Origin: Maribacter sedimenticola
Lineage (GTDB): Bacteria; Bacteroidota; Bacteroidia; Flavobacteriales; Flavobacteriaceae
Length of the DNA: 64,000 nucleotides
Assembly (NCBI RefSeq): GCF_900188415.1
Contig: NZ_FZNV01000005.1
Coordinates: 62,001 to 126,000 of the forward strand
Direction: 5' to 3'
The notes below the pieces were generated by a model. The model did no database searches. It was not told the origin of the DNA and saw only the letters and a program-made list of their open reading frames with translations. The stretch's first letter is position 1; every line of letters starts with the position of its first letter. Below are positions 5,525 through 23,242 of the stretch, in pieces. Both the position numbers and the translations under genes were made by a program.

Positions 5525-8500
5525 ATGAATCAAAAACGTGATTTCAGGTCGGTAAAGTTCCAAAAAAGGTCTTCCTTTTTTAAATCTGGAATTTTATCGG
5601 CACTCATCTGTCTTGGAGCCCAAATGGCACAGGCAAATGAGAAAACAAAAGCTTCAACAGAATTTGAAGTTAACACAGTACAATCTACAGTTACGGGTAC
5701 GGTAACAGATGAACTTGGAACGCCACTCCCAGGAACCAATGTGGTAGAAAAAGGTACTACGAACGGTACCCAAACAGATTTTGACGGTAACTTTACACTA
5801 AATGTTCAACCAGGAGCAACATTAGTGTTTAGCTATATAGGGTTTCAAGCTAAGGAAGTAGCGGTAAATGGTCAATCCGTCATAAACACTTCCTTATCTG
5901 AAGATGCAGCGGCCTTGGATGAAGTTGTAGTAACAGGATATCAAGTACAGACCAAAAGGGAAACAACAGCTGCAGTTTCTATAGTAGCAGCTGAAGATTT
6001 AGCAGCGGTACCTTCTGGAAACATAGAACAACAATTACAAGGTAGGGTTGCCGGTGTTACCGTATTGACAAATGGTCAACCGGGTACTACAAGTCAAATT
6101 AGGGTTAGGGGTTTTAACTCATTTGGTAACAATGCACCGTTATATGTAGTGGATGGAGTCCCAACGCGAAATGTGGACTTTATAAATCCAGATGACGTAC
6201 AAACCGCAACTGTACTTAAAGATGCGGCCGCCGCCTCTATCTATGGTGCAAGAGCTGCAAACGGGGTAATAGTATATACCACCAAACAAGGATCAAGATC
6301 AAAAAGAAAAACTACCATGACATTAAATGTCAACAGTGGTGTTGTTGACCCAAATGTTGCCGGTGCCCCACAAATGCTAAGTCCGTTAGAAATGGCAAGG
6401 TATACGCATATAGGATATGAGAACAATGCAGCCGCCAATGGTACTGCTGTTCAATATACACATCCGCAATATGGTACCAATGCTACGCCAACAATTCCAG
6501 ACTACTTACATGCAAATGGCCAGAACGGAGTAAGTGCTGCAAATGTAGATTTAGCCGCTGTAAGAGCAGCATATGAATCTGATCCAGATAACACGTTCTT
6601 GATCAGACCTAATTTACAAGGTACCAACTGGTATAAGGAAATTACGCGTATAGCACCCCAGAGCAGGGTTTCTTTAGGATTTGATGGTGGAACGGAAAAT
6701 GGTCGTTTTTACATGGGTATTTCAGCACAAAACCAAGACGGTATAGTTCTGGCCCAGGAATTTTCTCGTTACGCAGCCCGTTTTAATTCTGAATGGGACG
6801 TTACGCCTTGGTTGAGCGTTGGTGAAAACTTTCAGGTTACTTACAGATCTGCTATTGGTATTGCCGGTGGAGCCGGTGGTGTAGAAGTAGCGGATGATGA
6901 ATCTGAAGTTCTTTCCGCTTTTAGAATGCCTACCATAATTCCGGTAAGGGATGAATTTGGCAGCTATGCAAGTACGAAAGCAGCTGGTTTCAACAACCCA
7001 AGAAACCCTGTAAGAAGATTAAAACTTAACAATGGTGATGACAAATCATACAACATTGGTGGATTTGGAAATGTTTATGCATTGATTAAACCTTTAGAAG
7101 GTTTAACCTTACGTTCCAGTCTTGGTGGTAGTTATGGTAATTACCATTATGTAGATTACAACTACAGATATTTAGGGGATTCTGAGCCAGAAGCCAGTAA
7201 CTCATTCGGCGAAGGTAGTGGCTATGGTTTTTCATGGACGTTTACAAATACCTTTAGCTATGAAAAACTTTTTGGGCAACATAAGCTGACCGCTTTTGGT
7301 GGTATAGAGGCATTGAATACCGGAAGAGGTAGAAATATTTCAGGTTTTGGTATCAATCCATTTTCTACAGATTTAGATTTTCAAAGCTTAAGTGTTGTGC
7401 AGAGTCCTGTAGTCCAAAGTAACCAGTTTAAGGGATCTACCTACTTTTCTACTTTTGGAAAGTTAGATTATAACTTTAACGAAAAGTATTATTTAACAGG
7501 TGTACTTCGTCGTGATGGTTCATCTCGTTTTGGTGAAAACAAAAGATATGGTGTTTTCCCTGCAGTTTCAGCCGCTTGGAGGGTTATTGACGAACCATTT
7601 ATGCAAAACCAAGATATCATTTCTGATTTAAAAATTAGAGGTGGTTGGGGTGAAATGGGTAGTGATTCCAACGTATCGCCCAATAACCAATACTCTTTAT
7701 TTGCTTCTGATCGTGGCAATACGTTTTATCCAATTGATGGTCAAAACAGTGGTGCCAACGAAGGATTTGCCGCAAGTAGAATTGGAAATCCAAATGCACA
7801 ATGGGAAACCTCTGAAACAACGAACATAGGTTTTGACCTTTCCATGTTCAATAATAAATTGGAATTTATCCTGGATTGGTGGAAAAAAGACACTAGAGAT
7901 CTTCTTTACCAAGTGCCGTTACCAGGTGTAGCAGGTAATTACGCCGCTTCACCATCAGTTAACATTGGTGGTATGAGCAACAAAGGGGTAGACTTCCAGA
8001 TAATTGGTAGAGGTAATATTACCGAAGACCTTTCTTTTGAAGTAACCAGTACAAATTCATTCCTTAAGAATGAAATTACCGCTTTGGCTCCAGGTATTGA
8101 TGCTTTTGGTGATAACATTGCCTATAGAGGTATAGCACCAATTCGTAATTCCGTAGGAGAATCCATTTCTACGTTCTTCGGTTATAATGTAATAGGATAC
8201 TTCAACTCAGCTGAAGAAGTTGCAAATTCACCAGATCAAGCGGATAAGGCCCTAGGTCGTTTTAGATATGAGGACGTAAACGGTGATGGCGCCATTACTC
8301 CGGACGATAGAACGGTTATTGGTAGTGCAGTACCGGATTTTACCGGTGGTTTGGATTTAATCTTACGTTATAAGAACTTAGAGTTCCAGACCTATTGGTA
8401 TGGTTCCGTAGGTAATGAAATTTTCAACCAATCCAAATGGTTTACTGATTTCTTTGGTACGTTTGAAGGTTCTGCAAAAGGTGTGGCCGCTTATGGTTCA

Positions 8501-8836
8501 TGGACACCGGAATTAGGTAACAATGCAACTGCCCCAATTTGGGAAAGTGCCTCTAACTTAAGTACGAGTGGAGCATCTAACTCCTGGTATGTAGAAGACG
8601 GTAGCTACTTAAGGTTGGTTCAACTGAGAATAGGTTATAATTTCGATGCAGACTTAGTTGAAAGCATGGGACTTAGCAAGTTTTCCGTAGGATTATCCGC
8701 AAACAACATTTGGACAATTACGGATTACAGTGGACTTGATCCACAAGTTGCCGGACCAGATACCAACTTTGGTATAGATGTAGGTAACTTCCCAGTAACT
8801 CCAAGCTACGCAATTACCTTAGAAATAGGCATTTAA
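5525..8836 (+). CDS. SusC/RagA-family TonB-dependent outer-membrane transporter (copy 1)
   Basis: A 1103-residue outer-membrane importer that forms a lidded pair with the downstream SusD lipoprotein and imports a ligand using TonB energy. Order: long basic signal region (about 1-38), CarboxypepD_reg-like domain (about 57-130, VTGTVTDELGTPLPGTNVVE), TonB-box/plug start (DEVVVTGYQ), plug domain (GRVAGVTVL, IRVRGFNSFG, LYVVDGVP, LKDAAAASIYGARAANGVI), then a 22-strand barrel ending in an aromatic-containing strand. There is no STN domain, so signalling through an anti-sigma factor is not indicated. The N-terminus is similar to that of the second SusC (MNxKxDFxSVK...ANEK). The ligand is unknown; no polysaccharide-degrading enzyme is encoded nearby. 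Confidence 0.95.
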   Translation: MNQKRDFRSVKFQKRSSFFKSGILSALICLGAQMAQANEKTKASTEFEVNTVQSTVTGTVTDELGTPLPGTNVVEKGTTNGTQTDFDGNFTLNVQPGATLVFSYIGFQAKEVAVNGQSVINTSLSEDAAALDEVVVTGYQVQTKRETTAAVSIVAAEDLAAVPSGNIEQQLQGRVAGVTVLTNGQPGTTSQIRVRGFNSFGNNAPLYVVDGVPTRNVDFINPDDVQTATVLKDAAAASIYGARAANGVIVYTTKQGSRSKRKTTMTLNVNSGVVDPNVAGAPQMLSPLEMARYTHIGYENNAAANGTAVQYTHPQYGTNATPTIPDYLHANGQNGVSAANVDLAAVRAAYESDPDNTFLIRPNLQGTNWYKEITRIAPQSRVSLGFDGGTENGRFYMGISAQNQDGIVLAQEFSRYAARFNSEWDVTPWLSVGENFQVTYRSAIGIAGGAGGVEVADDESEVLSAFRMPTIIPVRDEFGSYASTKAAGFNNPRNPVRRLKLNNGDDKSYNIGGFGNVYALIKPLEGLTLRSSLGGSYGNYHYVDYNYRYLGDSEPEASNSFGEGSGYGFSWTFTNTFSYEKLFGQHKLTAFGGIEALNTGRGRNISGFGINPFSTDLDFQSLSVVQSPVVQSNQFKGSTYFSTFGKLDYNFNEKYYLTGVLRRDGSSRFGENKRYGVFPAVSAAWRVIDEPFMQNQDIISDLKIRGGWGEMGSDSNVSPNNQYSLFASDRGNTFYPIDGQNSGANEGFAASRIGNPNAQWETSETTNIGFDLSMFNNKLEFILDWWKKDTRDLLYQVPLPGVAGNYAASPSVNIGGMSNKGVDFQIIGRGNITEDLSFEVTSTNSFLKNEITALAPGIDAFGDNIAYRGIAPIRNSVGESISTFFGYNVIGYFNSAEEVANSPDQADKALGRFRYEDVNGDGAITPDDRTVIGSAVPDFTGGLDLILRYKNLEFQTYWYGSVGNEIFNQSKWFTDFFGTFEGSAKGVAAYGSWTPELGNNATAPIWESASNLSTSGASNSWYVEDGSYLRLVQLRIGYNFDADLVESMGLSKFSVGLSANNIWTITDYSGLDPQVAGPDTNFGIDVGNFPVTPSYAITLEIGI

Positions 8837-8893
8837 GAGTTAAAACATAAAATTAACAATACAATATTTAGTAACTTTAAGAAAAAGTAAACT

Positions 8894-10642
8894 ATGAAAA
8901 CATTTAAATTAAAAAAAACGTCGTTACTCTTAGGCGCGTTGCTTCTAGCATCGATGTCATGTAGCGATGAATTTTTGCAGGTAGCCCCAACGGACTCCCT
9001 TGCAGATTCACAGGTTAGTACCAAGGCAGGTATTGACGGTTTATTGATCGGTACATATTCTGCCCTGAACGGAGTTTTTGGAAATAGATTTGAAGGTCCT
9101 AACCACTGGGCCACAGGATCAGTTGTTGGTGGAGATGCCAACAAAGGAACAGATGCAGGGGATTATAGCTCCCTTAATCCCATTCAACGTTATGAGGCCA
9201 GTCCCGTAGACCCTAACAATGATTTTAACAATCTTTGGAGAGGTAGGTATGAAGGGGTAAGCCGTGCCAATAAGGTGTTATCGGCCATTGCCAATTCCAC
9301 TGAATTGACCGCTGCAGATGCTACAAGACTTTCTGGGGAAGCTAGAATGTTAAGGGGCCACTTTTATTTTGACCTTAAAAAGCATTTTAACAATATTGTT
9401 GTTTTTGATGAAACCGTAGCTCCAGAAGATTTGGCAACATTGCCAAATAATGGTGATGCTTGGGCTATCATTGAATCTGATCTTCAATATGCCTATGACA
9501 ACTTACCTGCGGTAAACGGTGCCGGTAGAGTAAACAAATGGGCAGCAGGAGCACTTTTGGCAAAGGCCAAATTATACCAACAAAAATTTGGTGAAGCCAA
9601 GGACTTGTTTGACGATGTAATTGAAAATGGTGTAACATCCAACGGTCTTAAGTATGATCTGTTAGATGATTACGCGCAAATTTACAATGCAGAAAATGAC
9701 AACCATGCAGAAGCCGTCTTTGATGTGGAATCTGCAAATAATACGGGTAACGTACAAAATGCAAATGCCTTTGACGACTTGAACTACCCTTATAATACCG
9801 GTCCTGATGGTCCTGGTAACTGCTGTGGATTCTTTCAACCAAGTTTTGAAATGGCAAATTCATATAGAACAGGTGCAGACGGACTTCCTTTATTGGATAA
9901 ATCATATAACAACCCAGAAAATGTGGTGAAAAATGATTTTGGTCTGGAAGCGGATGAACCGTTCGTTGAAGATGATGGTCCGTTAGATCCTAGAATTGAT
10001 CATGCTATAGGAAGAAGAGGTATTCCTTATTTAGATTGGATAGAACATCCAGGTAAAGCTTGGATCCGTAGCCAACCTTATGCCGGTCCCTATTCCCCTA
10101 AAAAGTATATCTATTACAGAAGTCAGGAAAATAGCTTTACGGATGGTAGTTCCTGGACACGTGGTTATGCAACAATGAACTATACCATCATCCGTTTTGC
10201 AGATGTACTTCTAATGGCTGCAGAAGCAGAAATTGAAGCACCGGGCGGTTCATTGGACAAAGCATTGGAATATGTAAATAGAGTGAGAAGAAGAGCTGCA
10301 AATTCAGAACATTGGGTAAAAGAATATGATTCTGATGAGAATGCCGCAAATTATGTAATTTCTGAATATACGTCGTTTCCAAATGCAGATTTTGCTAGGG
10401 ATGCCGTACGTTTTGAAAGAAAACTTGAACTTTCTGGCGAAGGTCACCGTTTCTTTGATTTAGTAAGATGGGGTGTTGCAGCAGAAGAGCTTAATGAATA
10501 TTTGGATTATGAATCTACATTACTGGTAACCAAGTTTGGTGGTGCTAGTTTCGTAGCTGGGAAAAATGAGTACTTCCCTATTCCACAAGCTCAAATTGAT
10601 ATTACTGGTTCTGATGTCCTACAACAAAATCCAGGATATTAA
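8894..10642 (+). CDS. SusD/RagB-family surface lipoprotein (copy 1)
   Basis: A 582-residue ligand-capturing lid for the preceding SusC. The lipobox ends at Cys23 (LLLASMSC) and is followed by SDEF, which resembles the flavobacterial lipoprotein surface-export signal. The SusD N-terminal TPR-like region includes ANKVLSAIAN and GEARMLRGHFYFDLKKHF. The C-terminal part includes IRFADVLLMAAEAEIE, ALEYVNRVRRRA, FERKLELSGEGHRFFDLVRW and KNEYFPIPQAQI, all typical of RagB/SusD. It is 57 bases after susC and followed by a strong terminator, so susC-susD forms one unit. Confidence 0.95.
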   Translation: MKTFKLKKTSLLLGALLLASMSCSDEFLQVAPTDSLADSQVSTKAGIDGLLIGTYSALNGVFGNRFEGPNHWATGSVVGGDANKGTDAGDYSSLNPIQRYEASPVDPNNDFNNLWRGRYEGVSRANKVLSAIANSTELTAADATRLSGEARMLRGHFYFDLKKHFNNIVVFDETVAPEDLATLPNNGDAWAIIESDLQYAYDNLPAVNGAGRVNKWAAGALLAKAKLYQQKFGEAKDLFDDVIENGVTSNGLKYDLLDDYAQIYNAENDNHAEAVFDVESANNTGNVQNANAFDDLNYPYNTGPDGPGNCCGFFQPSFEMANSYRTGADGLPLLDKSYNNPENVVKNDFGLEADEPFVEDDGPLDPRIDHAIGRRGIPYLDWIEHPGKAWIRSQPYAGPYSPKKYIYYRSQENSFTDGSSWTRGYATMNYTIIRFADVLLMAAEAEIEAPGGSLDKALEYVNRVRRRAANSEHWVKEYDSDENAANYVISEYTSFPNADFARDAVRFERKLELSGEGHRFFDLVRWGVAAEELNEYLDYESTLLVTKFGGASFVAGKNEYFPIPQAQIDITGSDVLQQNPGY

Positions 10643-10668
10643 TTCATAGAAATCACTATTGAATACAT

Positions 10669-10698
10669 AAAAAAGGCTACCAATCATGGTAGCCTTTT
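10669..10698 (+). terminator. Rho-independent terminator after susC-susD 1
   Basis: Seven-base GC-rich stem GGCTACC (10675-10681) / GGTAGCC (10688-10694) with a 6-base loop, preceded by six A and followed by TTTTCTTT. It separates the SusCD pair from the next gene. Confidence 0.85.
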
Positions 10699-10700
10699 CT

Positions 10701-10731
10701 TTGTAAATCTTTTTATGTTCCCGCATATTTG
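10701..10731 (+). promoter_or_regulatory. Candidate promoter of the first FG-GAP/ASPIC lipoprotein gene
   Basis: TTG at 10701-10703, a 20-base spacer, and CATATTTG at 10724-10731 (7 of 8 to TAnnTTTG). Transcription would start near 10738, just before the ATG at 10748. It lies immediately after the terminator, where a new promoter is needed. Confidence 0.4.
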
Positions 10732-10747
10732 TATATGCACATTAATA

Positions 10748-13700
10748 ATGAAAATGAATAGATTACCACAACCCCTATTTCTATTATGTAGTTTTTTCCT
10801 ATACTTGGGATGCAATGATAATAATCCCAAAAAACTTTTTACAGTCCTTGATGCAACTACCACCGGATTAAATTTTTCCAATCCCATTTTTGAGAATGAT
10901 TCCATAAATATTATTGACAATGAATTTGTATACAACGGTGCCGGTGTAGCCATTGCAGATATAAATGGTGACGGTCTTGATGATATTTTCCTAGCTGGAA
11001 ATCAGGTAGACAATGCCTTGTTTTTAAATGAAGGAAATTTAAAATTCAGAGATGTAAGCAAGGAATCAAACATTGGTAAGACAGATAGTTTACAATGGTC
11101 ATCCGGAGTCACAGTTCTTGACATTAATTTAGATGGTCTTCAAGATATCTATGTTTGTAATACTTTCAGAAAAGATAGTACTCAAAGAAAAAACTTATTA
11201 TTTATAAACCAAGGAAACAACAATAAAAACGTTCCGGTTTTTAAGGAAGAAGCTTCCAAGTATGGATTGGATGATACAACATATTCCTCGCACGCCCAAT
11301 TTTTTGATTATGATAATGATGGTGATTTAGATGTTTTTATTGGGGTTAACCGTATAGAAGGCATCAACCCAAATCAGTTTAGTCCCTTAACAGATGATGG
11401 CACCTCTAAAAGCAAAGATATTTTATATGAAAATGTATTTGTAGATAGCATATCAGAACCAAGGTTCATAGATGTATCGACCAAGGCAGGCATACGCTAT
11501 CATGGTTACAGTCATAGTACGCTCATACATGATTTTAATGAAGATGGTTGGTTGGACATTTACGTGGCCAATGACTTTTTAAGCAACGACCTAATTTACA
11601 TCAACAATAAAGATGGATCATTTACCAATAAGGCGGGAGATATATTTAAACACTTTAGCCTTTCATCCATGGGCAGTGATATTACTGATGTGGATAACGA
11701 TGGGCGCATGGATATATTTACCACAGAAATGCAGCCCTACTATAACAAAAGAAAAAAACTTTTTCAGGGCCCGAGCAGTTATCAAAAAGAAATTTTTACC
11801 AAGAAATTTTTATATGAACACCAGTATACCAGGAATACTTTACAGCAAAACCTTGGTGTAAGTCCAGAAACAGGTCTACCCATATTTGGTGAAATTGGCA
11901 TGTATATGGGCATACAGGAAACAGATTGGAGCTGGGCTCCATTATTTGCTGATTTTGACAACGATAGTTGGAAAGATTTGCTCATCACCAATGGATTCCC
12001 AAAAGATGTGACCGATCGTGATTTTGGTGATTTTAGAATCTCGGCAAGTAGATTGGTAAGCAAACAAACCTTGATCGATGCCATACCTGAAATTAAAATT
12101 CCAAATTTCATCTTTAAAAATATAGAGGGGAAAATGTTTTATGATGCTACCCAAGATTGGGGACTGGACTTCGGTACATTCTCTAATGGTGCGGCTTATG
12201 GAGACCTTGATAATGATGGGGATTTGGATCTTGTCATCAACAATATTAACGACCCGGTCTTACTTTTGGAAAACAATGCTAACGAATTGTTTCCTGAAAA
12301 GAATTACCTAAGAATAAAGCTATCCGGGGATAAAAAAAATCCAGAAGCATTTGGTAGTACCATAGTAACTTATTACGGTAATAAGGTACAGCGACAGTCA
12401 CTTTTAACGGGAAGGGGTTATTTATCTCAGCCAGAGAAAACGTTCCATGTGGGTTTAGGAAAATTCCAAAAAGTGGATAGCCTAAAAATTATTTGGCCAA
12501 ATGGTGACATTCAGCTTGAAATAAACCCTGCTCTTAATAAACTAAACGAATATACGTACCGTCCTGTCAACAAATTATCACTTCTAAAAAAGAATCCGGT
12601 TTTTAAAAAAGCTTCGCAAAACTTGGGCTTAAACCATGTCACTAAGGATGATGACTTTATCGATTTCAACTTTCAAAGAACCATACCGCATAAATTTTCA
12701 CAATATGGTCCATCTATCGCTGTAGGTGATATTAATGGAGATGGCTTAGACGATATATTCATTGCAGCAAGTAGAGGGCAAGAGGAAACTTGGTTTATAC
12801 AAACCGCTAATAGCACATTTAAAAAAACTATGGTATCCTATAAAAGTGATGAAAAATTAGAAGATGATTCCGGTTCATTATTATTTGATGCCGATAATGA
12901 TGGAGACTTAGATCTTTATTTGGCAAGAGGTAGCGCCCAATATCCTGCAGGTCATGAATTATATAAGGATAAATTATTATTGAATGATGGATTTGGAAAT
13001 TTTACAGAAGCCACCAATTCTATCCCAAATATGTTTTCAAATACAAATTGTGTAAAAGCTGCCGATATTGACAAAGATGGCGACCTAGACCTTTTTGTAG
13101 GTAGTAGGGTTTTACCATTTTCTTACCCTTCTGCGGATAGATCGTACATTTTGGAAAATCAATCCAACGGAACTGATATAAAATTTGTAGATGCTACTTC
13201 CAAAATTAATGCAGATTTAAAGTTTCCAGGATTGATAAGTGATGCCATATGGTCCGATTTTAACAATGATTTTTGGCCAGATTTAATATTGGTCGGTGAA
13301 TGGATGCCCATTAGGTTCTTTGAAAATAAAAACGGAACCCTCATAGAACAAAAGGAAAATGCCAATATACAAGATAAACATGGCTGGTGGAACAGTATAG
13401 CTGCTGGAGATTTGGATAATGACGGTGATGTAGATTATGTAGTTGGCAATGTTGGCCGTAATTTAAATTTCACAGGAACCAAAGAGCAGCCTGTAAGGCT
13501 TTATGCCAAGGATTTGGATAATAATGGTACCATAGACCCCCTTTTATCATTTTATCTCAGGGATAGTCTTGGGACCAAAAAAGAATATCTGTACCACCCC
13601 TGGCAAGATGTTACCAAACAATATGTTGGCATTAGAAAAAAATATAATTCATTTGGTGAATTTGGTGCAGCCACTCTAGCAGAAATGTTCAATGATGGGC

Positions 13701-14311
13701 TATTGCAAGATGCCGTAAAACTTAAACTCAATTACATGGAAACTTCTTTAATAGAAAATATGGGAAGTGGCAAATTTAAGATTCATGCATTACCTATAGC
13801 AAGTCAATATGCACCAATTTACGGTATTATGCTACAAGATATTAACGCTAATGGATTCTTGGATGTTATGCTTGTGGGCAATGATTTCGGAATGGAAGTA
13901 CAACAAGGTATGGCAGATGCTTTCAACGGGCTTTTAATTAAGAATGAAGGTAATTTAAAATTAAGCCCCGTATCTCTTGAAGATTCACATTTTTGGGTAC
14001 CTGGTGACGCAAAATCATTGGTAAATGTGCACTTACAGGACAATAAGGAATTGGTTATAGCTTCGCAAAATAATGATTCATTGAAAATCCATGAATATAA
14101 TGACCAAAGAATAGGCTCACCTATCAATTTTAAACATGGTGAAGTAAAGGCACGTATAACGTTTAAAAATGGAAGAAAAAGAATTCAGGAAGTGTATTGG
14201 GGCAATAGTTTCAATTCTCAGTTCACACCACGTGTGTTCATGACCGCTAGCGTAAAGGAACTAGACTTTTACGACGTAAACGGGGCAATAACCAGAAATA
14301 TCATGAATTAA
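10748..14311 (+). CDS. Large FG-GAP/VCBS-repeat lipoprotein with central ASPIC/UnbV domain (copy 1)
   Basis: A 1187-residue predicted lipoprotein (Cys22; C-N-D-N-N start is rich in acidic/amide residues, possibly surface-exposed). Seven DxDxDG-type Ca-binding motifs (DINGDGLDDIF through DLDNDGDLDLVI) lie in residues ~70-500. An ASPIC/UnbV domain follows (about 518-595; GRGYLSQPEKTFHVGLG and IIWPNGD), then seven more motifs (DINGDGLDDIFI through DINANGFLDVML). This suggests two seven-bladed beta-propellers joined by the ASPIC domain. Function is unknown; such CRTAC1-like proteins bind calcium and are thought to mediate adhesion or ligand binding. An upstream ATG at 10715 is in frame, but 10748 directly precedes the signal peptide and follows the candidate promoter. 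Confidence 0.85.
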   Translation: MKMNRLPQPLFLLCSFFLYLGCNDNNPKKLFTVLDATTTGLNFSNPIFENDSINIIDNEFVYNGAGVAIADINGDGLDDIFLAGNQVDNALFLNEGNLKFRDVSKESNIGKTDSLQWSSGVTVLDINLDGLQDIYVCNTFRKDSTQRKNLLFINQGNNNKNVPVFKEEASKYGLDDTTYSSHAQFFDYDNDGDLDVFIGVNRIEGINPNQFSPLTDDGTSKSKDILYENVFVDSISEPRFIDVSTKAGIRYHGYSHSTLIHDFNEDGWLDIYVANDFLSNDLIYINNKDGSFTNKAGDIFKHFSLSSMGSDITDVDNDGRMDIFTTEMQPYYNKRKKLFQGPSSYQKEIFTKKFLYEHQYTRNTLQQNLGVSPETGLPIFGEIGMYMGIQETDWSWAPLFADFDNDSWKDLLITNGFPKDVTDRDFGDFRISASRLVSKQTLIDAIPEIKIPNFIFKNIEGKMFYDATQDWGLDFGTFSNGAAYGDLDNDGDLDLVINNINDPVLLLENNANELFPEKNYLRIKLSGDKKNPEAFGSTIVTYYGNKVQRQSLLTGRGYLSQPEKTFHVGLGKFQKVDSLKIIWPNGDIQLEINPALNKLNEYTYRPVNKLSLLKKNPVFKKASQNLGLNHVTKDDDFIDFNFQRTIPHKFSQYGPSIAVGDINGDGLDDIFIAASRGQEETWFIQTANSTFKKTMVSYKSDEKLEDDSGSLLFDADNDGDLDLYLARGSAQYPAGHELYKDKLLLNDGFGNFTEATNSIPNMFSNTNCVKAADIDKDGDLDLFVGSRVLPFSYPSADRSYILENQSNGTDIKFVDATSKINADLKFPGLISDAIWSDFNNDFWPDLILVGEWMPIRFFENKNGTLIEQKENANIQDKHGWWNSIAAGDLDNDGDVDYVVGNVGRNLNFTGTKEQPVRLYAKDLDNNGTIDPLLSFYLRDSLGTKKEYLYHPWQDVTKQYVGIRKKYNSFGEFGAATLAEMFNDGLLQDAVKLKLNYMETSLIENMGSGKFKIHALPIASQYAPIYGIMLQDINANGFLDVMLVGNDFGMEVQQGMADAFNGLLIKNEGNLKLSPVSLEDSHFWVPGDAKSLVNVHLQDNKELVIASQNNDSLKIHEYNDQRIGSPINFKHGEVKARITFKNGRKRIQEVYWGNSFNSQFTPRVFMTASVKELDFYDVNGAITRNIMN

Positions 14312-14458: not shown

Positions 14459-17400
14459 ATGCGTTTTCTATCAACCTTTACAATTCTAATTACATTTCTT
14501 GTTTTATGTTCATGCACAGAAGATCCCAAGACCTTGTTTGAAACTCTTCCGGCATCTGAAACGGGAATTGAATTCAATAATCTTATCGTTGAGACAGATA
14601 GCTTTAATATTCTTACCAGTGAATATATTTTTAACGGTGGCGGTGTAGCCATTGGTGATTTCAACAATGATGACAAACCAGATATTTTCTTCAGCGGAAA
14701 TCAAGTACCCAACAAATTATACTTGAACCAGGGAAATTTTAAATTCAAGGATGTTTCAAAGGAAGCAGGTATAGAATCTATAAATACTTGGAATACCGGT
14801 ATTGCACTTGCGGATATCAATAACGATGGGTTTTTGGATATATATGTGTGTTCTGCAATGCTTAACGAAGAAGAGAATAAAAAAAACCTTCTCTTCATTA
14901 ACCAAGGATTAAATAATAACCAAGTTCCAGTATTCTCAAATAAGGCGGAAGAATACGGTATTGAAGAATCGGGCAACAGTATGGGAGCCACATTTTTTGA
15001 TTACAATAAGGACGGTCTTTTAGACCTATATGTATTAAACAATGTGGATATACATGTACTTCCTGCAAATTATCGTAAAAAAACAACTGATGGATCTGCC
15101 CTTAGTAATGACAGGTTATACAAAAATAATGGTAACGGCACATTTACAGATGTTACCCTAGAAGCAGGTATTACTATAGAAGGTTATGGTTTAGGTTTAG
15201 CTATTTCAGATTTGAATTATGATGGTTGGCCGGACATTTATGTCAGTAATGACTACTTGACCAATGATGTTCTTTACATTAACAACCAAGATGGCACGTT
15301 TAGTAATAAAATCAAGGAGCAGGTAAAACACCAGAGTAAATTCTCTATGGGCAATGACATCTCGGATTTTAACAATGATGGCTATCTGGACATTCTGACC
15401 TTGGACATGCTTGGAGAAACCAATCAAAGACTTAAAACTACATTATCAGGACATAAGTATACAGAATATATTCTTAATGAAAGGTATGACTATGAATATC
15501 AGCACACTAGGAATATGCTTCAAAAAGGCAATGGTAGTAATCTTCCTTTTAGTGAAATAGGATTATTGGCAGGAGTATCCAAAACAGATTGGAGCTGGTC
15601 TCCCCTATTTGCAGATATGGACAATGATGGCTATAAGGATATTTTGATCACCAATGGTTTTCCCAGGGATATTACCGACCTTGATTTTGGTGATTTTAAG
15701 TTTAATGTTAGTAGATATTTAAGTCCTGCACAAATCTTGGATTCTATTCCAAAAATTAAAATACCCAATTATGCCTTTAAAAACAACGGAAATAATACGT
15801 TTGAAGATGTGAGTACTACTTGGGGACTTGGGGTTCCATCATTTTCCAACGGGGCTGCATTTGCAGATTTAGACAATGATGGTGACTTGGATTATGTCGT
15901 AAACAATATAAATGACAAAGCTTTGCTTTTTAGAAACACCGCAGATAAGCTAGATCAAAAAAAACATAATTTTTTGACCATAAAGCTAACTGCAAACAAT
16001 GCCCTTACTGTTGGTGCCAAATTGGTTCTAACATTGTCAGACGGCACATTTCAGTACCATGAACACAATACCTATAGGGGCTATATGTCCACAGTAGAAG
16101 ATATTGTTCATTTTGGTTTGGGTCAAAATAACGAAATACAAAGTGTGGAGGTGTTATGGCCAGATGGCAAATTTCAAAAATTGGACAATATTAAGGCCAA
16201 TGAAAAAATAGTACTGGAACACGCAAATGCAGCTTTGGTTTCATTGAATGAACTAAAATTTCCCCTAGCCCAAAATCTCCCTGAAACAATTTTCCAGGAA
16301 GTCTCAAAATCCATTGGCATACAATTTAAACATGTGGAAACGGATAAGATAGATTTTAATATTCAGCGAACGTTACCGCACAAGCTTACACAAAATGGCC
16401 CGCAAATTGCCGTGGCGGATATTAATGGTGATGGCACGGAAGACTTCATTATAGGAAGTTCTTCCGGAACTTCGCCACAATTGTTCACACAGGATACCAA
16501 CGGTACTTTTAGTCAACGATCTCTATATATCGATGAGGAAGATTTTAAGTTTGAAGAAGAGAGTATAGTATTTTTCGATTTGGAGAACGATGGCGATTTA
16601 GATCTATATCTAGTATCTGGCAGTAATGAATTTGCTTTGGGCGACACATCTTATAACGACCAACTTTTACTCAATGATGGTAATGGTAATTTCACTCAAT
16701 CCAAAAACAAAGCACCTGAAATAAACTCAAGCGGATCGGTAGTCATAGCCAATGATTTTGACAAAGATGGCTTTACAGACCTTTTTATTGGAGGACGAAC
16801 ACCTTATGGCCAATACCCTACCCCAGAAAAAAGTTATTTATTAAAAAACATAAACGGAACCTTAAAAGATGTTACCAATGAACTAGCTCCCCAAATAAAT
16901 GAACTGGGTATGGTAACGGATGCTATTTGGGCAGATGTGGACATGGATAATTATGATGATCTTATAGTAGTAGGTGAGCTAATGCCCATTTCTATTTTTA
17001 AGAATAATGGTAGTGGTTTTCAAAAGCTAGAAAACACGGGAGTTGATAATTTACGTGGTTGGTGGGAAAGTATTTCTAAAGTTGATATGGACAATGATGG
17101 AGATCTGGATTTTATAATAGGCAATTTAGGTACCAATAATTTTTACCGCCCAACACTGGAAAGACCTACTACGGTGATCGCCAAGGATTTTGACAATAAT
17201 GGTACCATAGACCCTGTTGTATTTTCCTATTTTAAAGAAAGCTTTGAAAATCCGGTCCAAAAATCTTTTCCTGTACATTTTTGGGCGGACTTAAATGGGC
17301 AAAGTCCTATGTTCCGCGCAAAATTCAATTCGTTTAAATCATATTCCAAAGCAACAATCAAAAATCTTTTCAATGAAAGTGAAATAAAAGGCGCAACTAC

Positions 17401-17788
17401 ATTGACCGCAAATTTTGATAAAAGTATTTTTCTTGAGAATCTTGGCAATGGAACTTTTAGTCATTCCGAATTACCTATAGAAGCTCAATTTGCCCCAATC
17501 AACGACATAGCTATCCTAGATTATAATAATGACTCATTAAAAGATATCCTTTTGGTTGGAAACAATTTTGGAAATGAGGTATTTATAGGTAGAAATGATG
17601 CATTTAACGGTTTGCTTATAAAGAATGAAGGAAACGGTAAATTAACCACCATACCAACTCCGGAAAGTGGGTTTTTAGTACCTGGAGATTCAAAAAGCAT
17701 GGCTATCGTTAACAGCAATAAAGAAAAATTCCCATATTATATAGTTACCCAAAACAGGGATTCCCTAAAGGTATTTCAGAAAAATTAA
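14459..17788 (+). CDS. Large FG-GAP/VCBS-repeat lipoprotein with central ASPIC/UnbV domain (copy 2)
   Basis: A 1109-residue paralogue of the preceding protein with the same plan. Lipobox LCSC gives Cys19, followed by TED (acidic, compatible with surface export). Seven Ca-binding motifs (DFNNDDKPDIFF to DLDNDGDLDYVV) precede an ASPIC/UnbV domain (about 504-580, with TYRGYMSTVEDIVHFGLG and VLWPDGK). Seven more motifs follow (DINGDGTEDFII to DYNNDSLKDILL). Both copies share segments such as TDWSWxPLFAD and ITNGFPxD. Because the copies diverge clearly, the duplication is old. A 147-base gap with the shared box separates it from copy 1, so it may have its own promoter. Function is unknown; ligand capture alongside the flanking SusCD pairs is inference. 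Confidence 0.85.
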   Translation: MRFLSTFTILITFLVLCSCTEDPKTLFETLPASETGIEFNNLIVETDSFNILTSEYIFNGGGVAIGDFNNDDKPDIFFSGNQVPNKLYLNQGNFKFKDVSKEAGIESINTWNTGIALADINNDGFLDIYVCSAMLNEEENKKNLLFINQGLNNNQVPVFSNKAEEYGIEESGNSMGATFFDYNKDGLLDLYVLNNVDIHVLPANYRKKTTDGSALSNDRLYKNNGNGTFTDVTLEAGITIEGYGLGLAISDLNYDGWPDIYVSNDYLTNDVLYINNQDGTFSNKIKEQVKHQSKFSMGNDISDFNNDGYLDILTLDMLGETNQRLKTTLSGHKYTEYILNERYDYEYQHTRNMLQKGNGSNLPFSEIGLLAGVSKTDWSWSPLFADMDNDGYKDILITNGFPRDITDLDFGDFKFNVSRYLSPAQILDSIPKIKIPNYAFKNNGNNTFEDVSTTWGLGVPSFSNGAAFADLDNDGDLDYVVNNINDKALLFRNTADKLDQKKHNFLTIKLTANNALTVGAKLVLTLSDGTFQYHEHNTYRGYMSTVEDIVHFGLGQNNEIQSVEVLWPDGKFQKLDNIKANEKIVLEHANAALVSLNELKFPLAQNLPETIFQEVSKSIGIQFKHVETDKIDFNIQRTLPHKLTQNGPQIAVADINGDGTEDFIIGSSSGTSPQLFTQDTNGTFSQRSLYIDEEDFKFEEESIVFFDLENDGDLDLYLVSGSNEFALGDTSYNDQLLLNDGNGNFTQSKNKAPEINSSGSVVIANDFDKDGFTDLFIGGRTPYGQYPTPEKSYLLKNINGTLKDVTNELAPQINELGMVTDAIWADVDMDNYDDLIVVGELMPISIFKNNGSGFQKLENTGVDNLRGWWESISKVDMDNDGDLDFIIGNLGTNNFYRPTLERPTTVIAKDFDNNGTIDPVVFSYFKESFENPVQKSFPVHFWADLNGQSPMFRAKFNSFKSYSKATIKNLFNESEIKGATTLTANFDKSIFLENLGNGTFSHSELPIEAQFAPINDIAILDYNNDSLKDILLVGNNFGNEVFIGRNDAFNGLLIKNEGNGKLTTIPTPESGFLVPGDSKSMAIVNSNKEKFPYYIVTQNRDSLKVFQKN

Positions 17789-18071: not shown

Positions 18072-18179
18072 TTGGTTATTTCATAAAATATTAACTAATA
18101 TTATGATAATTTAATATAATTTTTAACCTTGATTAAGAATTATTAATAAATCAACAATTTAACTAAACAACAACTTATT

Positions 18180-21100
18180 ATGAACAAAAAACCAGATTTT
18201 AAATCGGTAAAATCCAGAGAAAGCTTATCATTTCTTGGCAAAGGATTTTTACTGATTGTAGCATGCATTTGCACCCATAGTATGGTTGCAAATGAAAAAC
18301 TGAATGTTATGGCAGGTATTGAATCGCCGGTACCCCAGTCAGTAGTCACCGGTACTGTATCCGATGAAATGGGGCCGTTACCCGGCGCCAGTGTTCTTGT
18401 CAAAGGAACTACAAATGGTACTCAAACAGATTTTGATGGTAATTTCACCATTGAAGCCCCTAATGATGCAATTTTGGTCATCAGCTACATAGGGTATAAG
18501 ACAATGGAGGTTGCCGTTGACAGTCAAACGACCATAAATGTAACCCTTCTGGAAGATGCCAGTAAATTGGATGAAGTAGTCGTTACGGGATATGGCACTC
18601 AGGCCAAAAAAGACTTGACCGGTGCAGTATCCGTTGTGGATACTGATGAGCTTTTAGCTACACCTGCCACCACTTTTGCCCAACAACTTCAAGGTAGGGC
18701 TGCCGGTGTCAGTATCGTTAACGATGCAAGACCAGGTGGGGAAGCCACCGTACGTATTAGAGGTTTTGGTACAGTTGGCAACAATGACCCATTATATGTA
18801 ATTGATGGGGTCCCAACCCAGGCCCAAGCCAATTTGAACCCTAATGATATAGAATCCTTACAAATATTAAAAGATGCTTCTGCAGCATCCATTTATGGAT
18901 CCAGGGCCGCAAACGGTGTAATTATCATTACGACCAAGAAAGGAAAAATGGGAAAACCTACTATTTCCTATGATACCTATTACGGAATGCAAACTGCGGA
19001 CAATGACGTGGAGGCGTTGAACGCCAGGGAGCTGGGACAATATTTATATTTGGCAGATTTGTATGCCGGTAAAACCCCAGGTCATGGTCAATATACGTTT
19101 GGGCCCAATGGTGAGGTTACCATACCGGATTATGTATTTCCTAGTGGAGCCAATGAAGGCGATGCTGGAACTGACCCAAATCTCTATGCATTGGAAGAAG
19201 GTAACATCTACGCCATTACCAGATCGGCAGATACGGATTGGTGGAAAGAAGTAACTAGGTCCGCTCCTATTCAAAGCCATAACATCTCTGCTTCCGGTGC
19301 TACGGACAAAGCCCGTTACGCATTTTCACTTGGTTATTTTACGGCAGATTACATTACTAAATTCAGTAGTTACGATAGAATTTCCTTAAGGGCAAATACA
19401 GAATTCAAGGCCATAGGCGACAAACTGACCATTGGTGAGAATTTTACGGCCTCTTTTGATAATACTAAAGGACAATATCAAAATGATGAAGAACAAAACG
19501 CCGTATCCGCAGGATATAAACATCATCCCCTATTGCCTATCTATGATATAGCAGGAAACTTTGCAGGAAGTAGAGGTGCCAACTTGGGTAACAATTTCAA
19601 CCCGTATGCTTCATTAAAGAGAAATGAGGACGATCGCGTGTATAGATTAAGACTGTTGGGTAATGTTTTTGCTAATTACGAGCTTACAAAAAACTTAGCC
19701 ATAAGATCAAGTTTTGGTGTTGACGTGCGTGCCCAAAGAGAAAGGGACTTAGGTAGGCCACAACCGGAATATGTTGAAGGTAATTTTATCAATAGTTCAG
19801 AATCAAGGGAACAATATGAATACCAATGGACATGGACCAATACCCTAAGTTATACCAAGACATTTAACGAAGTTCACAATTTTCAGGCATATGTAGGTAT
19901 AGAATCCATTCAACAATTTGAAGAGCGTTTTGGAGCAAGAAGGGAACGTTTTGCCTTTGAGACCCCTAATATTCTTAGCTATTTAAACCTTGGTAATGCT
20001 ACCACCTCAACTAATTATGGCTTCGTTGAGCAAGATTACTCCTTGTGGTCTCAATTTGGAAAGCTAAACTATGATTATCAAGGAAGGTATTTAGCCCAAT
20101 TCATTTTAAGAAATGATTCATCCTCAAGGTTCCAATCTGCTTCAAGAAGTGCGGTATTCCCGGCATTTAGTTTAGGATGGAGGGTTTCTGATGAAACCTT
20201 TATGAGCAATATAGAATGGATCAATGATTTAAAGGTCAGATATGGCTGGGGCCAAACAGGTAACCAACAGATTGGGGACTATAATGCATTTACCACCTTC
20301 CGTTCTGATATTGGAACCGGCGGTTATCCAATTGATGGTAGCACAGGTTCACCAACCATAGGCTTTTCCACCCGCGCATTTGGTAATCCAAACGCAAAAT
20401 GGGAAACTACTACGTCCAATAACTTTGGGTTGGATTTATTAATGTTCAACAGTAAAGTAAACTTCAATTTAGATATCTGGAATCGTGTTACAACAGATAT
20501 GCTGTTCCAAGTTCCTGTGACCTACACGGCCGGTCAAGCAGATGAACCTAGGTTCAACGTGGGCGGTGTCACTAATAAAGGTGTTGACTTTACCTTAGGG
20601 TTTAATGATACCAAAGGTGATTTTGGCTACGGCATAAGTGCTAACGTTTCTCAATACACCAATAATGTAGACCAATTAAGCGAAAGTGCGGATACTAGGT
20701 TTTTTGGTAGTTCAAGAAGGGTTCCGGCATTAACCGTAACCCAAGCAGGATCTCCGTTATCATCTTTCTATGGTTTTAAAACCGTTGGCATATTTCAATC
20801 GCAGGCAGAAGCGGATGCATGGCCAGAGTATGGAGATTACAACGCTCCTGGTAAGCTAAAGGTTGCGGATATCAATAATGACGGGGTCATAAACGATGAT
20901 GATCGTACCGTTATAGGCAACCCCCATCCAGATTTTACGTATGGTATCAATTTGGACTTTACCTACAAGAACTTAGCATTGAATATTTTCGGAAACGGGT
21001 CACAGGGTAATGATATCTATAATTACGTACGCTATTTCGCAGATTTTAACACCTTTCAGGGAAATAGGTCAAGGAGGGCGCTATATGATGCTTGGCAACC

Positions 21101-21464
21101 CACAAATCCCACTGCCGATCCAAGTACATGGGTAGCCGCCAATCCTAACGCTACCGTTCCTATAATGGATGCCAACGACCAGATAAGTAGTAGACCATCA
21201 TCCTATTTCATAGAAGATGGTAGTTTCTTTAGAATTAAGAACGTTCAATTAACGTATAGTTTTACTGAAAATCTGCTGTCCTCCATTGGTGGAATTTCAA
21301 GGGCATCTATTTATATACAGGGACAAAATTTAGCCACATTTACAAAATATACTGGCTTAAATCCTGAAATACAGACGGGTAACAATACCAACCTTGGGTA
21401 TGACGGTGGTTTCTTACCGGTATCAAGAACCTTTTTAATGGGCCTTAACATTACCTTAAACTAA
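18180..21464 (+). CDS. SusC/RagA-family TonB-dependent outer-membrane transporter (copy 2)
   Basis: A 1094-residue paralogue of the first SusC. Order: signal region (about 1-38, ending MVANEK), CarboxypepD_reg-like domain (VTGTVSDEMGPLPGASVLVK), DEVVVTGYGTQAKK plug start, plug motifs (GRAAGVSIV, IRGFGTVGNNDPLYVIDGVP, LKDASAASIYGSRAANGVI), then the barrel. The barrel includes a periplasmic-turn type motif VADINNDGVINDDDRTVIG near residue 900, also present in copy 1 as DVNGDGAITPDDRTVIG. There is no STN domain. The susD partner follows after about 23 bases. The ligand is unknown. Divergence between the two SusC proteins suggests different ligands or different sizes of the same ligand. Confidence 0.95.
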   Translation: MNKKPDFKSVKSRESLSFLGKGFLLIVACICTHSMVANEKLNVMAGIESPVPQSVVTGTVSDEMGPLPGASVLVKGTTNGTQTDFDGNFTIEAPNDAILVISYIGYKTMEVAVDSQTTINVTLLEDASKLDEVVVTGYGTQAKKDLTGAVSVVDTDELLATPATTFAQQLQGRAAGVSIVNDARPGGEATVRIRGFGTVGNNDPLYVIDGVPTQAQANLNPNDIESLQILKDASAASIYGSRAANGVIIITTKKGKMGKPTISYDTYYGMQTADNDVEALNARELGQYLYLADLYAGKTPGHGQYTFGPNGEVTIPDYVFPSGANEGDAGTDPNLYALEEGNIYAITRSADTDWWKEVTRSAPIQSHNISASGATDKARYAFSLGYFTADYITKFSSYDRISLRANTEFKAIGDKLTIGENFTASFDNTKGQYQNDEEQNAVSAGYKHHPLLPIYDIAGNFAGSRGANLGNNFNPYASLKRNEDDRVYRLRLLGNVFANYELTKNLAIRSSFGVDVRAQRERDLGRPQPEYVEGNFINSSESREQYEYQWTWTNTLSYTKTFNEVHNFQAYVGIESIQQFEERFGARRERFAFETPNILSYLNLGNATTSTNYGFVEQDYSLWSQFGKLNYDYQGRYLAQFILRNDSSSRFQSASRSAVFPAFSLGWRVSDETFMSNIEWINDLKVRYGWGQTGNQQIGDYNAFTTFRSDIGTGGYPIDGSTGSPTIGFSTRAFGNPNAKWETTTSNNFGLDLLMFNSKVNFNLDIWNRVTTDMLFQVPVTYTAGQADEPRFNVGGVTNKGVDFTLGFNDTKGDFGYGISANVSQYTNNVDQLSESADTRFFGSSRRVPALTVTQAGSPLSSFYGFKTVGIFQSQAEADAWPEYGDYNAPGKLKVADINNDGVINDDDRTVIGNPHPDFTYGINLDFTYKNLALNIFGNGSQGNDIYNYVRYFADFNTFQGNRSRRALYDAWQPTNPTADPSTWVAANPNATVPIMDANDQISSRPSSYFIEDGSFFRIKNVQLTYSFTENLLSSIGGISRASIYIQGQNLATFTKYTGLNPEIQTGNNTNLGYDGGFLPVSRTFLMGLNITLN

Positions 21465-21487
21465 TTGAAATGCATAAAATATATATC

Positions 21488-23242
21488 ATGAAAAAGAGGA
21501 ACATATTAATCACGGCTTGTGTCACCGCCCTGGTGTTTATAACAGGATGTAGTGATGAATTTTTAAATAGAGAACCCGAGGGCAGTTTCAGCGAAAGTGA
21601 TGTTGCAACTGCAGATGGGGTTGAAGGACTTTTAATTGGCGCATATACCATGGTACCGGGAGGTGGACTAGAAGGCCAAACTTGGCACAATGACATTCAT
21701 AGTTGGGTATTTAATATTGCCTCAGATGATGCCCTAAAAGGTACTGATGCCGGTGACCAACCAGAACAATCGTTCATAGAAGGATATGACTTTCAATCCT
21801 TTAATATTCATATAAGGGATAAATGGAGAGGACTTTATAAGGGTGTAGCCGCCACTAATATTGTTCTTACCACGCTAGCGGAAGTAGAGGATATTAGTGA
21901 TGAAAGAAGAGCCCAAATAGTGGCAGAAGCAAGATTCTTAAGAGGATTGTTCCATATGGAGGCGCGAAAAATGTGGAGAATGCCAACTTATATAAGTGAT
22001 GAAAATTTCGCCTTAAACGATCTTGAAAGCACGAAAATTCCGAACGACAGGGAAATTTGGCCATTGATCGAAGCGGATTTTGAGGCTGCGGCAGCAGTGT
22101 TGCCCGCTACGCAAGGAGATGTAGGAAGACCAACTAGTTGGGCCGCAAAAGCGTTTTTGGGCAAAGCCAAGATATATCAAGGGTTTGACGAGAACGGCAC
22201 GGCCAACCTGACCAAGATGGGCGAAGCAAAAGTAATTTTCGATGATATTATCGAAAATGGTCCTTTTACTTTAATGGATAAGTTTGAGGATAACTTTAAA
22301 GTTGCCACACGTAATAATACCGAATCTATCTTTGAGGTACAATACGCAATTAGCAGTGCATCTGGAGATGCAGCCAATAGAGGTATTGGCCTGGCACACC
22401 CGTATACCGATCCTTGGGGTTGCTGTGGTTTTTACCAAGCGTCTCAAAACTTGGTGAACGCATATAAAACCGAGGAGGGATTACCACTATTGGACACGTT
22501 CAACGAAACCAACGTATCCGCAGATGTGGATGAAACCACAACATTGTCGACCTATACAGGTACATTGGATCCCCGTTTGGACCATACGGTAGGAAGACCG
22601 GGTATTTTATATAAGGGCTTTAAAATTTACCAAACAGATTTTGTCAGGGACCTTTCGTATGCCGGACCATTTTTCTCCATGAAGCATGTTGCGGAACCTG
22701 AAGCTTTTGGTCAAGGAGGATGGGGAAATCTTTCTGCCAACAATTATAGGATCATGAGGCTAGATATGATATATCTATGGCTTGCTGAAGCAGAGGTTGA
22801 ATTAGGTGATTTGGAAAGGGCTCGTACCTTGGTCAATGAAATAAGAAGTAGGGCGGCTAATCCTGAAGGATTTGTACCCCTTGCCACCCAAGGTACGGAC
22901 CGAAACGATTTTACCATTGAAGCCGGTACACCTGCTGCCAATTATGAAATTGCAACCTATGATGAAGTTTGGACAGACCCCGTCTTGGCAAGAAAAGCGG
23001 TTAGATTTGAAACACGATTGGAATTTGCCTTGGAAGGTCACCGATTTTTTGACCTACAGCGTTGGGGAATTGCAGCAGATGTATTAAATGCATACATAGC
23101 AAGCGAATCTGAGTTGAGGACGTATTTATCGGGAAAATCCTTTACAAAAGGAAAACATGAATATTTTCCTATACCCATAGAAGCCATAGATCGCTCTGCA
23201 GTGGATGGGCAACCAACCATAACCCAAGACCCTAATTATTAA
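21488..23242 (+). CDS. SusD/RagB-family surface lipoprotein (copy 2)
   Basis: A 584-residue partner of the second SusC. The ATG at 21488 gives a compact lipoprotein signal ending in ITGC at Cys21, followed by SDEF, a surface-export-like acidic start. An in-frame ATG at 21470 would add six residues. SusD family segments: LIGAYTMVPGG, ARFLRGLFHMEARKMW, LDMIYLWLAEAEVELGDLE, FETRLEFALEGHRFFDLQRW and KGKHEYFPIPIEAI. Like copy 1 it contains a WGCCGFYQ/NCCGFFQ-type motif in mid-protein, a feature shared by the two lids. The transcription unit ends at the bidirectional hairpin at 23270. Confidence 0.95.
   Translation: MKKRNILITACVTALVFITGCSDEFLNREPEGSFSESDVATADGVEGLLIGAYTMVPGGGLEGQTWHNDIHSWVFNIASDDALKGTDAGDQPEQSFIEGYDFQSFNIHIRDKWRGLYKGVAATNIVLTTLAEVEDISDERRAQIVAEARFLRGLFHMEARKMWRMPTYISDENFALNDLESTKIPNDREIWPLIEADFEAAAAVLPATQGDVGRPTSWAAKAFLGKAKIYQGFDENGTANLTKMGEAKVIFDDIIENGPFTLMDKFEDNFKVATRNNTESIFEVQYAISSASGDAANRGIGLAHPYTDPWGCCGFYQASQNLVNAYKTEEGLPLLDTFNETNVSADVDETTTLSTYTGTLDPRLDHTVGRPGILYKGFKIYQTDFVRDLSYAGPFFSMKHVAEPEAFGQGGWGNLSANNYRIMRLDMIYLWLAEAEVELGDLERARTLVNEIRSRAANPEGFVPLATQGTDRNDFTIEAGTPAANYEIATYDEVWTDPVLARKAVRFETRLEFALEGHRFFDLQRWGIAADVLNAYIASESELRTYLSGKSFTKGKHEYFPIPIEAIDRSAVDGQPTITQDPNY

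Follow-up and report, generated by a model that had tools for sequence, protein, structure and literature searches.

SusC/SusD pairs are described as importing their ligands by a pedal-bin mechanism (PMC7782687), and the utilisomes of gut bacteria have additional lipoproteins positioned at the lip of SusC (PMC7618045). We analysed a stretch of 64,000 nucleotides (the window) from the 4.27 Mb genome of Maribacter sedimenticola (contig C18), in which positions 5525-23242 hold two SusC/SusD pairs (SusCD1 and SusCD2) around two giant lipoproteins, V1 and V2. The six-gene order SusC, SusD, lipoprotein, lipoprotein, SusC, SusD had been proposed from the letters alone, and it was borne out: the open reading frames (ORFs) exist at these positions, and their families were assigned by Pfam and NCBIfam. 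Comparison with related genomes showed that two modules are combined in this locus as a mosaic: SusC1-SusD1-V1 on the one hand and, on the other, V2-SusC2-SusD2 together with the gene for a heptahaem c-type cytochrome. On balance, we think that it is probably a composite of two outer-membrane uptake modules for glycans or glycosides, in which the V proteins would act as surface receptors on SusCD and the cytochrome as an electron acceptor.

Module 1 begins with SusC1, a TonB-dependent outer-membrane transporter (5525-8836, + strand), followed by its lipoprotein lid SusD1 (8894-10642, +). The corresponding genes of module 2 are SusC2 (18180-21464, +) and SusD2 (21470-23242, +). SusC1 and SusC2 scored 784 and 886 bits with the SusC/RagA model TIGR04056, for which the cut-off is 368 bits, and in both pairs a SusD-family lipoprotein gene lies directly 3′ of SusC, after gaps of 57 and 5 bases, respectively. 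Both SusDs matched PF07980 and PF14322 and have vicinal cysteines (residues 310-311 in SusD1 and 318-319 in SusD2). In a search against PDB sequences, the top match of both SusCs was 5t3r_D (E = 1e-134 for SusC1), and both SusDs had 5lx8_A and 5t3r_A as top matches with near-equal E-values, 5lx8_A being the nearest solved structure for SusD1. 5T3R is Bt1762-63 (PMC7782687), and all four proteins are nearest, among PDB sequences, to this levan importer. By homology, both pairs are predicted to import a ligand in a TonB-dependent manner, with the SusC barrel and the SusD lid presumably working as a pedal bin. The pairs are 37% identical to each other for SusC as well as for SusD, and V1 and V2 are 44% identical. 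All six genes are on the + strand, and the second pair repeats the first in the same orientation; therefore, the locus is not mirror-like, as the sequence-only reading had described it.

V1 (10715-14311, +; PF13517, PF01839 and PF07593) and V2 (14459-17788, +; PF13517 and PF07593) are composed of FG-GAP repeats followed by an ASPIC/UnbV domain, with PF13517 and PF07593 above the cut-off in both proteins. The start of V1 may be an internal ATG at 10748 or 10754. A model of V2, generated with AlphaFold2 from a 52-row alignment (mean predicted local distance difference test (pLDDT) 90.9, predicted TM-score 0.91), shows two beta-propellers with the ASPIC/UnbV domain, in agreement, for V2, with the double propeller expected earlier. 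The best solved match of V2 was murine CRTAC1 (9etn_A; VIA Z 37.5, root-mean-square deviation 2.5, 460 residues, 22% identity; Foldseek E = 6.5e-28). The second propeller of V2 (residues about 607-1109) resembles, among many propellers, the EPTP propeller of LGI1 (Z about 31) and that of aldos-2-ulose dehydratase (Z 28.7). DDB1 and spliceosome proteins ranked below CRTAC1 in Foldseek; their TM-scores were 0.1-0.3, and we discounted them as matches to propellers in general. Cys19 of V2 is invariant in the 52 aligned sequences, as expected of a lipoprotein, and the V proteins are presumably located on the cell surface.

The association of V proteins with SusCD is not confined to this locus. We took the best 80 of 154 loci, picked by similarity to V2 and mostly from Flavobacteriaceae and Cytophagales, and left out nine contig-edge cases, which gave 71 V runs with upstream sequence. 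A SusD gene was directly upstream of the V run in 63 of the 71, and in 61 SusC preceded SusD. The former count is a lower bound because our own SusD model misses some genes, such as those of two loci of the source genome (L125 and L126) that were recognised by Pfam. The source genome contains ten ASPIC/UnbV genes in seven loci, each of which includes SusC and SusD. SusC-SusD-V is thus a widespread cassette. Since the V runs so regularly follow SusD, a role as surface receptor or scaffold beside SusCD is plausible. Of the earlier proposal that these lipoproteins serve the transporters as surface receptors or scaffolds, the tie to SusCD is therefore observed and the receptor function is plausible. 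V1 or V2 would form a third subunit on the cell surface, binding the ligand and passing it on to SusCD, in the place occupied by the surface glycan-binding proteins (SGBPs) of gut utilisomes.

Two further genes accompany V genes in these loci. One of about 190-205 residues is often found in the middle of a V run, as in loci of Roseivirga and other Cytophagales (L088, 9395-9979, and similar cases), and the one example examined had no Pfam match. The other encodes a PAP2-family protein of about 445 residues and follows the V genes in L122, L123, L052 and many Flavobacterium loci; the family was assigned by Pfam for L052, L122, L123 and L088 and by size only for the other loci. We take this protein to be possibly a vanadium haloperoxidase.

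To describe the locus across the genus, 36 Maribacter genomes were surveyed, and 29 loci were resolved between the same flanks. Four genomes were partial (G006, G008, G031 and G034), and three had no V2-like match of the locus type (G009, G021 and G025). This survey and that of the V loci overlap (L041 is G013, L042 is G014, L044 is G002 and L045 is G024). The order SusCD1-V1-V2-SusCD2 was found in four of the 29 loci (G000, G013, G015 and G020) and SusCD1-V2-SusCD2 in six, with a fasciclin gene inserted in G026. In the other 19, the second SusCD pair is absent from the locus. V2 is kept in 27 of the resolved loci and V1 in six, a half-length propeller gene occurs in nine, and a fasciclin gene in two. 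The first SusCD slot is occupied by divergent types (A in 12 loci, B1 in 11, B2 in five and a B-like type in one, G032), and the changes between A and B require at least three steps on the tree of flanking genes (G013 left out). V1 directly follows a type-A SusD1 in all seven loci that have V1, one of which is partial. SusCD types have thus been exchanged around a propeller gene that mostly stays, which is new. The six genes are accordingly no conserved block, as pieces are swapped in and out at one site. The sequence-only reading had held that separation of the pieces in relatives would count against it; such separation is seen for the six-gene unit and not for type-A SusCD1 with V1. For SusCD2 and V2 the picture is mixed: they are together in all ten cases at the locus and in all five covered loci of other genera, and SusCD2 has no adjacent V gene in nine Maribacter genomes.

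In Cellulophaga baltica and in two genomes of Maribacter, SusD and V are separated by a triple-fasciclin gene (L043, 8037-9644; L133, 10382-11983; L139, 8025-9629; identified by Pfam in two and by similarity in the third). The cytochrome gene of G015, in which the frame is broken, and SusC1 of G010 are split into several reading frames (L128 and L152).

The heptahaem cytochrome gene of module 2 (23318-24526, - strand) is convergent to SusD2. Its product has seven CXXCH motifs, matches PF13435 and carries an N-terminal hydrophobic stretch; modelling with AlphaFold2 on two sequences gave no usable structure (pLDDT 31). Within Maribacter, SusD2 orthologs were found in 19 of the 36 genomes, ten at the locus and nine at another shared site. 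In all ten cases at the locus, SusCD2 is directly after V2 and before the cytochrome, and the cytochrome is absent from the fetched locus in the remaining 19 of the 29. Both genes occur in 19 genomes, the cytochrome alone in two and neither in 15 (p = 2.4e-8, kinship ignored). The two with the cytochrome alone have a divergent cytochrome and no full SusD2 (G006 and G032). In G006, pieces of SusC2 and SusD2 (71-72%) are cut short by the ends of contigs, and the cytochrome lies before SusC2, adjacent to genes for GH43, GH5 and aldose epimerase; in G034, a second copy of the cytochrome lies beside a V gene.

The same genes occur together outside the genus. With a similarity threshold for SusD2 and for the cytochrome, a survey of 199 genomes of the window's family found SusD2 in eight (7 of 198 without the window's genome), the cytochrome in 12 and both in five, against 0.48 expected (p = 1.6e-5); without the window's genome, both were found in 4 of 198 (p = 1.7e-4), kinship being ignored in both tests. 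In all five genomes with both, the two genes are neighbours. SusC2 orthologs 62-84% identical to that of the window were present in seven other genera of the family, and the order in all four other genera with both genes is cytochrome, SusC2, SusD2 on one strand. V2 follows SusD2 in three of these (G165, G076 and G108), and in the fourth (G095) the contig ends after SusD2. A V2-type gene comes after SusD2 in all five covered loci from the SusD2 search. Cyclobacterium salsum (L047), which was found via V2, has SusC2-SusD2-V2 at 63, 63 and 52% identity, and its propeller branches basally in the V2 clade. The family search gave 13 cytochrome loci, with G194 outside the comparison of neighbourhoods. 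In G246, in G077 and at a second site in G108, a related cytochrome comes after a different SusC-V set. The recurrent module of cytochrome, SusC, SusD and double propeller is new. Judging from gene order, we propose that module 2 of the window is a rearranged form of cytochrome-SusC2-SusD2-V2. Two genes before the set in C. salsum lies a gene with a 3-keto-disaccharide hydrolase domain (L047, 581-2419), which fits oxidative sugar metabolism, and a gene similar to one for a TPR and AraC-type regulator is near module 2 in G165, G076 and G217.

The enzymes found beside the cytochrome suggest what it may do. In two of the other genera (G165 and G076), a GMC-type dehydrogenase gene and a putative small-subunit gene, so named from size, start and position only, lie just upstream of the cytochrome. 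In the sugar dehydrogenase BcGDH, Cys212, Cys218 and Cys222 hold a 3Fe-4S cluster that passes electrons to the multihaem subunit (PMC6719666), and both GMC proteins show Cys-x5-Cys-x3-Cys with the same spacing. The best PDB matches of the G076 GMC protein were glucose and fructose dehydrogenases; the small protein of G076 had no PDB match. The cytochrome would be anchored in the inner membrane, facing the periplasm, and may take electrons from the oxidation of imported sugar.

Several observations weigh against a fixed module with a redox function. In the family survey, G177 and G217 have SusC2-SusD2-V2 and no cytochrome at the threshold, a third SusD2 genome, G138, is 66% complete and its sequence ends after SusD2, the cytochrome loci of G241, G195 and G102 show no adjacent SusCD in the fetched stretch, and the cytochrome of G090 lies two genes from a SusD-V set. 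In Maribacter, the nine off-locus SusCD2 copies (L191-L199) have no adjacent V gene; they adjoin a gene of 606-627 residues, which in L192 encodes a TPR and AraC-type regulator by Pfam. In the same nine genomes, the cytochrome is apart and more distant (47-50% identical to that of the window), and in eight of them it comes after a gene for a protein of 1478 residues, which Pfam identified as DnaE in the single case examined (L203); in G010, the neighbour of the off-locus cytochrome is in pieces. When independent pairs were drawn from the tree, there were too few events (median p = 0.25). The trees also disagree, the at-locus copies forming two clades for SusD2 and one for the cytochrome, and this discordance speaks against a single travelling unit. 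The GMC gene of G076 lies 951 bases from the cytochrome, the GMC genes of G165 and G076 may not be orthologs, and their pairing with the cytochrome, seen in two of four genera, may be due to chance. No GMC dehydrogenase gene lies beside the cytochrome of the window, and the four GMC matches of the genome are on contigs C10 and C11. The cytochrome as a permanent operon partner in Maribacter in the strict sense was rejected, given its separation in nine genomes and the differing gene trees.

With regard to the ligand, no further ORF of at least 150 residues besides the six genes is present in 5525-23242; therefore, no carbohydrate-active enzyme (CAZyme), sulfatase, sigma factor or two-component gene lies in this range. 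The earlier statement to this effect holds within the range; directly beyond its end, the cytochrome gene and a gene for a putative esterase lipoprotein are found (24542-25255, -; PF02230 and other alpha/beta-hydrolase families). The esterase gene belongs to the conserved right flank: in G000 and L041 it follows the cytochrome gene, and loci without module 2 are flanked by it on the right. From the lack of degradative enzymes, the sequence-only reading had argued for a ligand taken up intact, such as a glycopeptide, chelate or cofactor. A sulfatase gene, however, is present within the same locus in four of the 29 Maribacter loci (by Pfam in G029 and G010, by similarity in G005 and G030), the GH43, GH5 and aldose epimerase genes of G006 stand beside the module, and paralogous SusCD-V loci of the source genome contain genes for GH67 (L121), GH43 with an arabinofuranosidase (L124) and GH20 (L126). 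The absence of enzymes is therefore a trait of this genome and not of the system, because relatives carry sulfatase and glycoside hydrolase (GH) genes there, and intact uptake of a chelate or cofactor does not follow. Other companions of these loci in the source genome are genes for PAP2-family proteins (L122 and L123) and an arylsulfotransferase (L125). In Flavobacterium (L052), genes for GH65, PfkB, an MFS transporter and an amylase-like protein flank a SusCD-V set, and a sulfatase, identified by similarity, precedes the cytochrome in G108. As a common cassette that often lies among enzyme genes, SusC-SusD-V is in its own right an indication of glycans.

An intact non-glycan ligand (haem, an iron chelate, a cofactor or a glycopeptide), captured by the propeller in the manner of BtuG and reduced or received in the periplasm by the cytochrome, nevertheless has points in its favour. 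BtuG is a propeller lipoprotein that caps a TonB-dependent transporter and captures vitamin B12 (PMC10404256), a multihaem cytochrome is linked to SusCD2, and the window locus has no CAZyme. We consider this unlikely in view of the sulfatase, GH43, GH5 and GMC-type dehydrogenase genes at the locus or beside the module in relatives. In addition, the BtuB model TIGR01779 gave only 34 and 37 bits with SusC1 and SusC2 (cut-off 600), and both SusDs fall, in a 35-row alignment, in the clade of BT1762, the lid of a fructo-oligosaccharide importer.

The BT1762 comparison also bears on the kind of glycan. When the residues of its binding site (PMC7782687) were compared, D67, C298-C299 and R368 were aligned as D, CC and R in both SusDs, and D41 and N43 were not retained in either. 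At W85 and Y395, neither SusD has an aromatic residue in the 35-row alignment; pairwise alignment instead places Phe at W85 and Trp at Y395 of SusD2, and by either alignment Trp is at W85 in neither protein. Since D67, CC and R368 are kept and Trp85 is not, a glycan or glycoside is likely and a fructan less so. Fructan had been considered as a ligand on the basis of the levan-importer matches and of a GH32 gene beside the relative of the locus in C. baltica (L043). This candidate is weakened by the lack of conservation of Trp85 and by two further points: the SusCD of fructan-type loci in Maribacter is of another kind, and the C. baltica GH32 has as its nearest relative an enzyme that stands alone, being 66% identical to the stand-alone GH32 of the source genome. 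GH32 is absent from the window locus, and the strong GH32 match of the genome is on contig C12. On the other hand, SusD2 may keep other aromatic residues, according to the pairwise alignment. Fructan-type loci were seen in five Maribacter relatives (L256, L257, L258, L259 and L266), with genes for proteins of about 916 residues (in L266 this gene is truncated or lies beyond the sequence) and 437-455 residues, GH32, SusC and SusD (580-583 residues), and an extra gene of 261-303 residues in four of the five. The SusDs of four of these GH32-linked loci are 41-42% identical to BT1762, form a separate clade together with it, and have W (three) or F (one) at W85 and F at Y395.

The ligand of the present locus would most likely be an oligomer of a glycan or glycoside, cleaved by enzymes whose genes lie at other sites. 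Such an arrangement has a parallel in Maribacter forsetii, which is reported to have its SusCD genes apart from CAZymes and to encode the enzymes that cut laminarin elsewhere (PMC11345257). A polysaccharide utilisation locus (PUL) has been defined by a CAZyme within eight ORFs of SusCD (PMC11345257), and no CAZyme contiguous with SusCD in one direction was found in the window locus. The seventh and eighth large ORFs after SusD2 encode a PIG-L domain and GHL10, assigned without a CAZy search, and belong to an amino-sugar cluster. This cluster (35353-43453) resembles those for amino-sugar or peptidoglycan recycling and encodes a SIS protein (GKRP-like), a DeoR regulator, a glucosamine isomerase-PIG-L fusion, GHL10, an MFS transporter and GH3.

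The distance between SusCD and CAZyme genes in M. forsetii is also compatible with another explanation, in which the locus consists of enzyme-poor PUL remnants: SusCD-V cassettes would be swapped at a permissive site, their enzymes lost and the cytochrome a passenger. The divergent types in the first SusCD slot, the separation of SusCD2 and cytochrome in nine Maribacter genomes, and a genome of another genus (G036) with only SusCD between the same flanks are in line with it. This origin seems improbable to us, however, as the cytochrome and SusCD2 are adjacent in four other genera in another orientation, all six ORFs of the window are open over their full length, and V2 persists in nearly all resolved loci. 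A role of the V proteins in adhesion or gliding, as surface proteins with integrin-like FG-GAP repeats that are mere neighbours of the transporters, is hardly credible: FG-GAP repeats are among the repeats of adhesion proteins (PMC2668756) and a gene for a giant protein lies next door (25426-34065), but V runs directly follow SusD in the great majority of surveyed loci and every ASPIC/UnbV locus of the source genome contains SusC and SusD.

The giant protein has 2879 residues and its gene forms part of the conserved right flank of the locus; its match in L211 carries the type IX secretion domain CHU_C. In the gap between SusD2 and the convergent cytochrome gene, there is a terminator-like hairpin (23270-23302, +) with a 13-pair stem followed by a T-rich tail. 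The region contained 16 terminator-like sites, compared with 14.5 in shuffles, which is not above chance, and the counts of sigma-70-like sites in the region were also at chance level. The promoter motif TTG-N17-23-TANNTTTG was absent from the intergenic gaps of the locus.

Beyond the composite of two glycan or glycoside uptake modules, which we favour, a bolder reading appears possible though doubtful. Cytochrome, SusC, SusD and propeller would form a four-component redox-coupled module in which an imported sugar or glycoside is oxidised in the periplasm and its electrons pass directly to the respiratory chain, and the CRTAC1-like propellers would be a new widespread class of SusCD subunits in Bacteroidota, mostly keeping their position as the SusCD pairs around them change. 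Giant CRTAC1-like lipoproteins linked to SusCD occur commonly among the surveyed loci, and among the matches listed from excerpts of the open-licence literature, no description of CRTAC1-like lipoproteins as SusCD partners was found. If V is a third subunit, the surface complex is complete in many uptake loci that seem to lack parts. Similarly, uptake across the outer membrane would be connected with respiration if SusCD is linked to a multihaem cytochrome; nothing on such a linkage was found in the open-licence literature, judged by abstracts.

Among known systems, the levan and dextran utilisomes of Bacteroides thetaiotaomicron (SusC2D2) are similar in combining SusCD with co-encoded surface lipoproteins (PMC7618045), and the levan pair BT1763/BT1762 provides the nearest PDB sequences to the SusC and SusD proteins described here. 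Unlike the utilisomes, the window has no surface GH, the additional lipoprotein has about 1100 residues and two propellers, unlike an SGBP with its immunoglobulin-like and binding domains, the levan-stacking Trp is not conserved, and a multihaem cytochrome accompanies one module. BtuB-BtuG likewise joins a TonB-dependent transporter to a beta-propeller surface lipoprotein (PMC10404256), whereas here there is a SusD lid, the transporter is SusC and not BtuB, and V has two propellers and ASPIC/UnbV. V2 differs from CRTAC1 by its second propeller and its lipoprotein signal. To our knowledge, the role of CRTAC1 in animals is unrelated. The direct-electron-transfer flavin adenine dinucleotide-dependent sugar dehydrogenases (BcGDH and fructose dehydrogenase) resemble the G165 and G076 sets of GMC protein, putative small subunit and multihaem cytochrome, but the cytochrome here has seven haem motifs instead of three, and the window has no such enzyme adjacent. 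Finally, RagAB of Porphyromonas gingivalis also shows divergent SusC/SusD types at one locus, with four ragAB alleles (PMC11817032); in Maribacter, the types are spread over a genus and lie beside a propeller gene that mostly stays.

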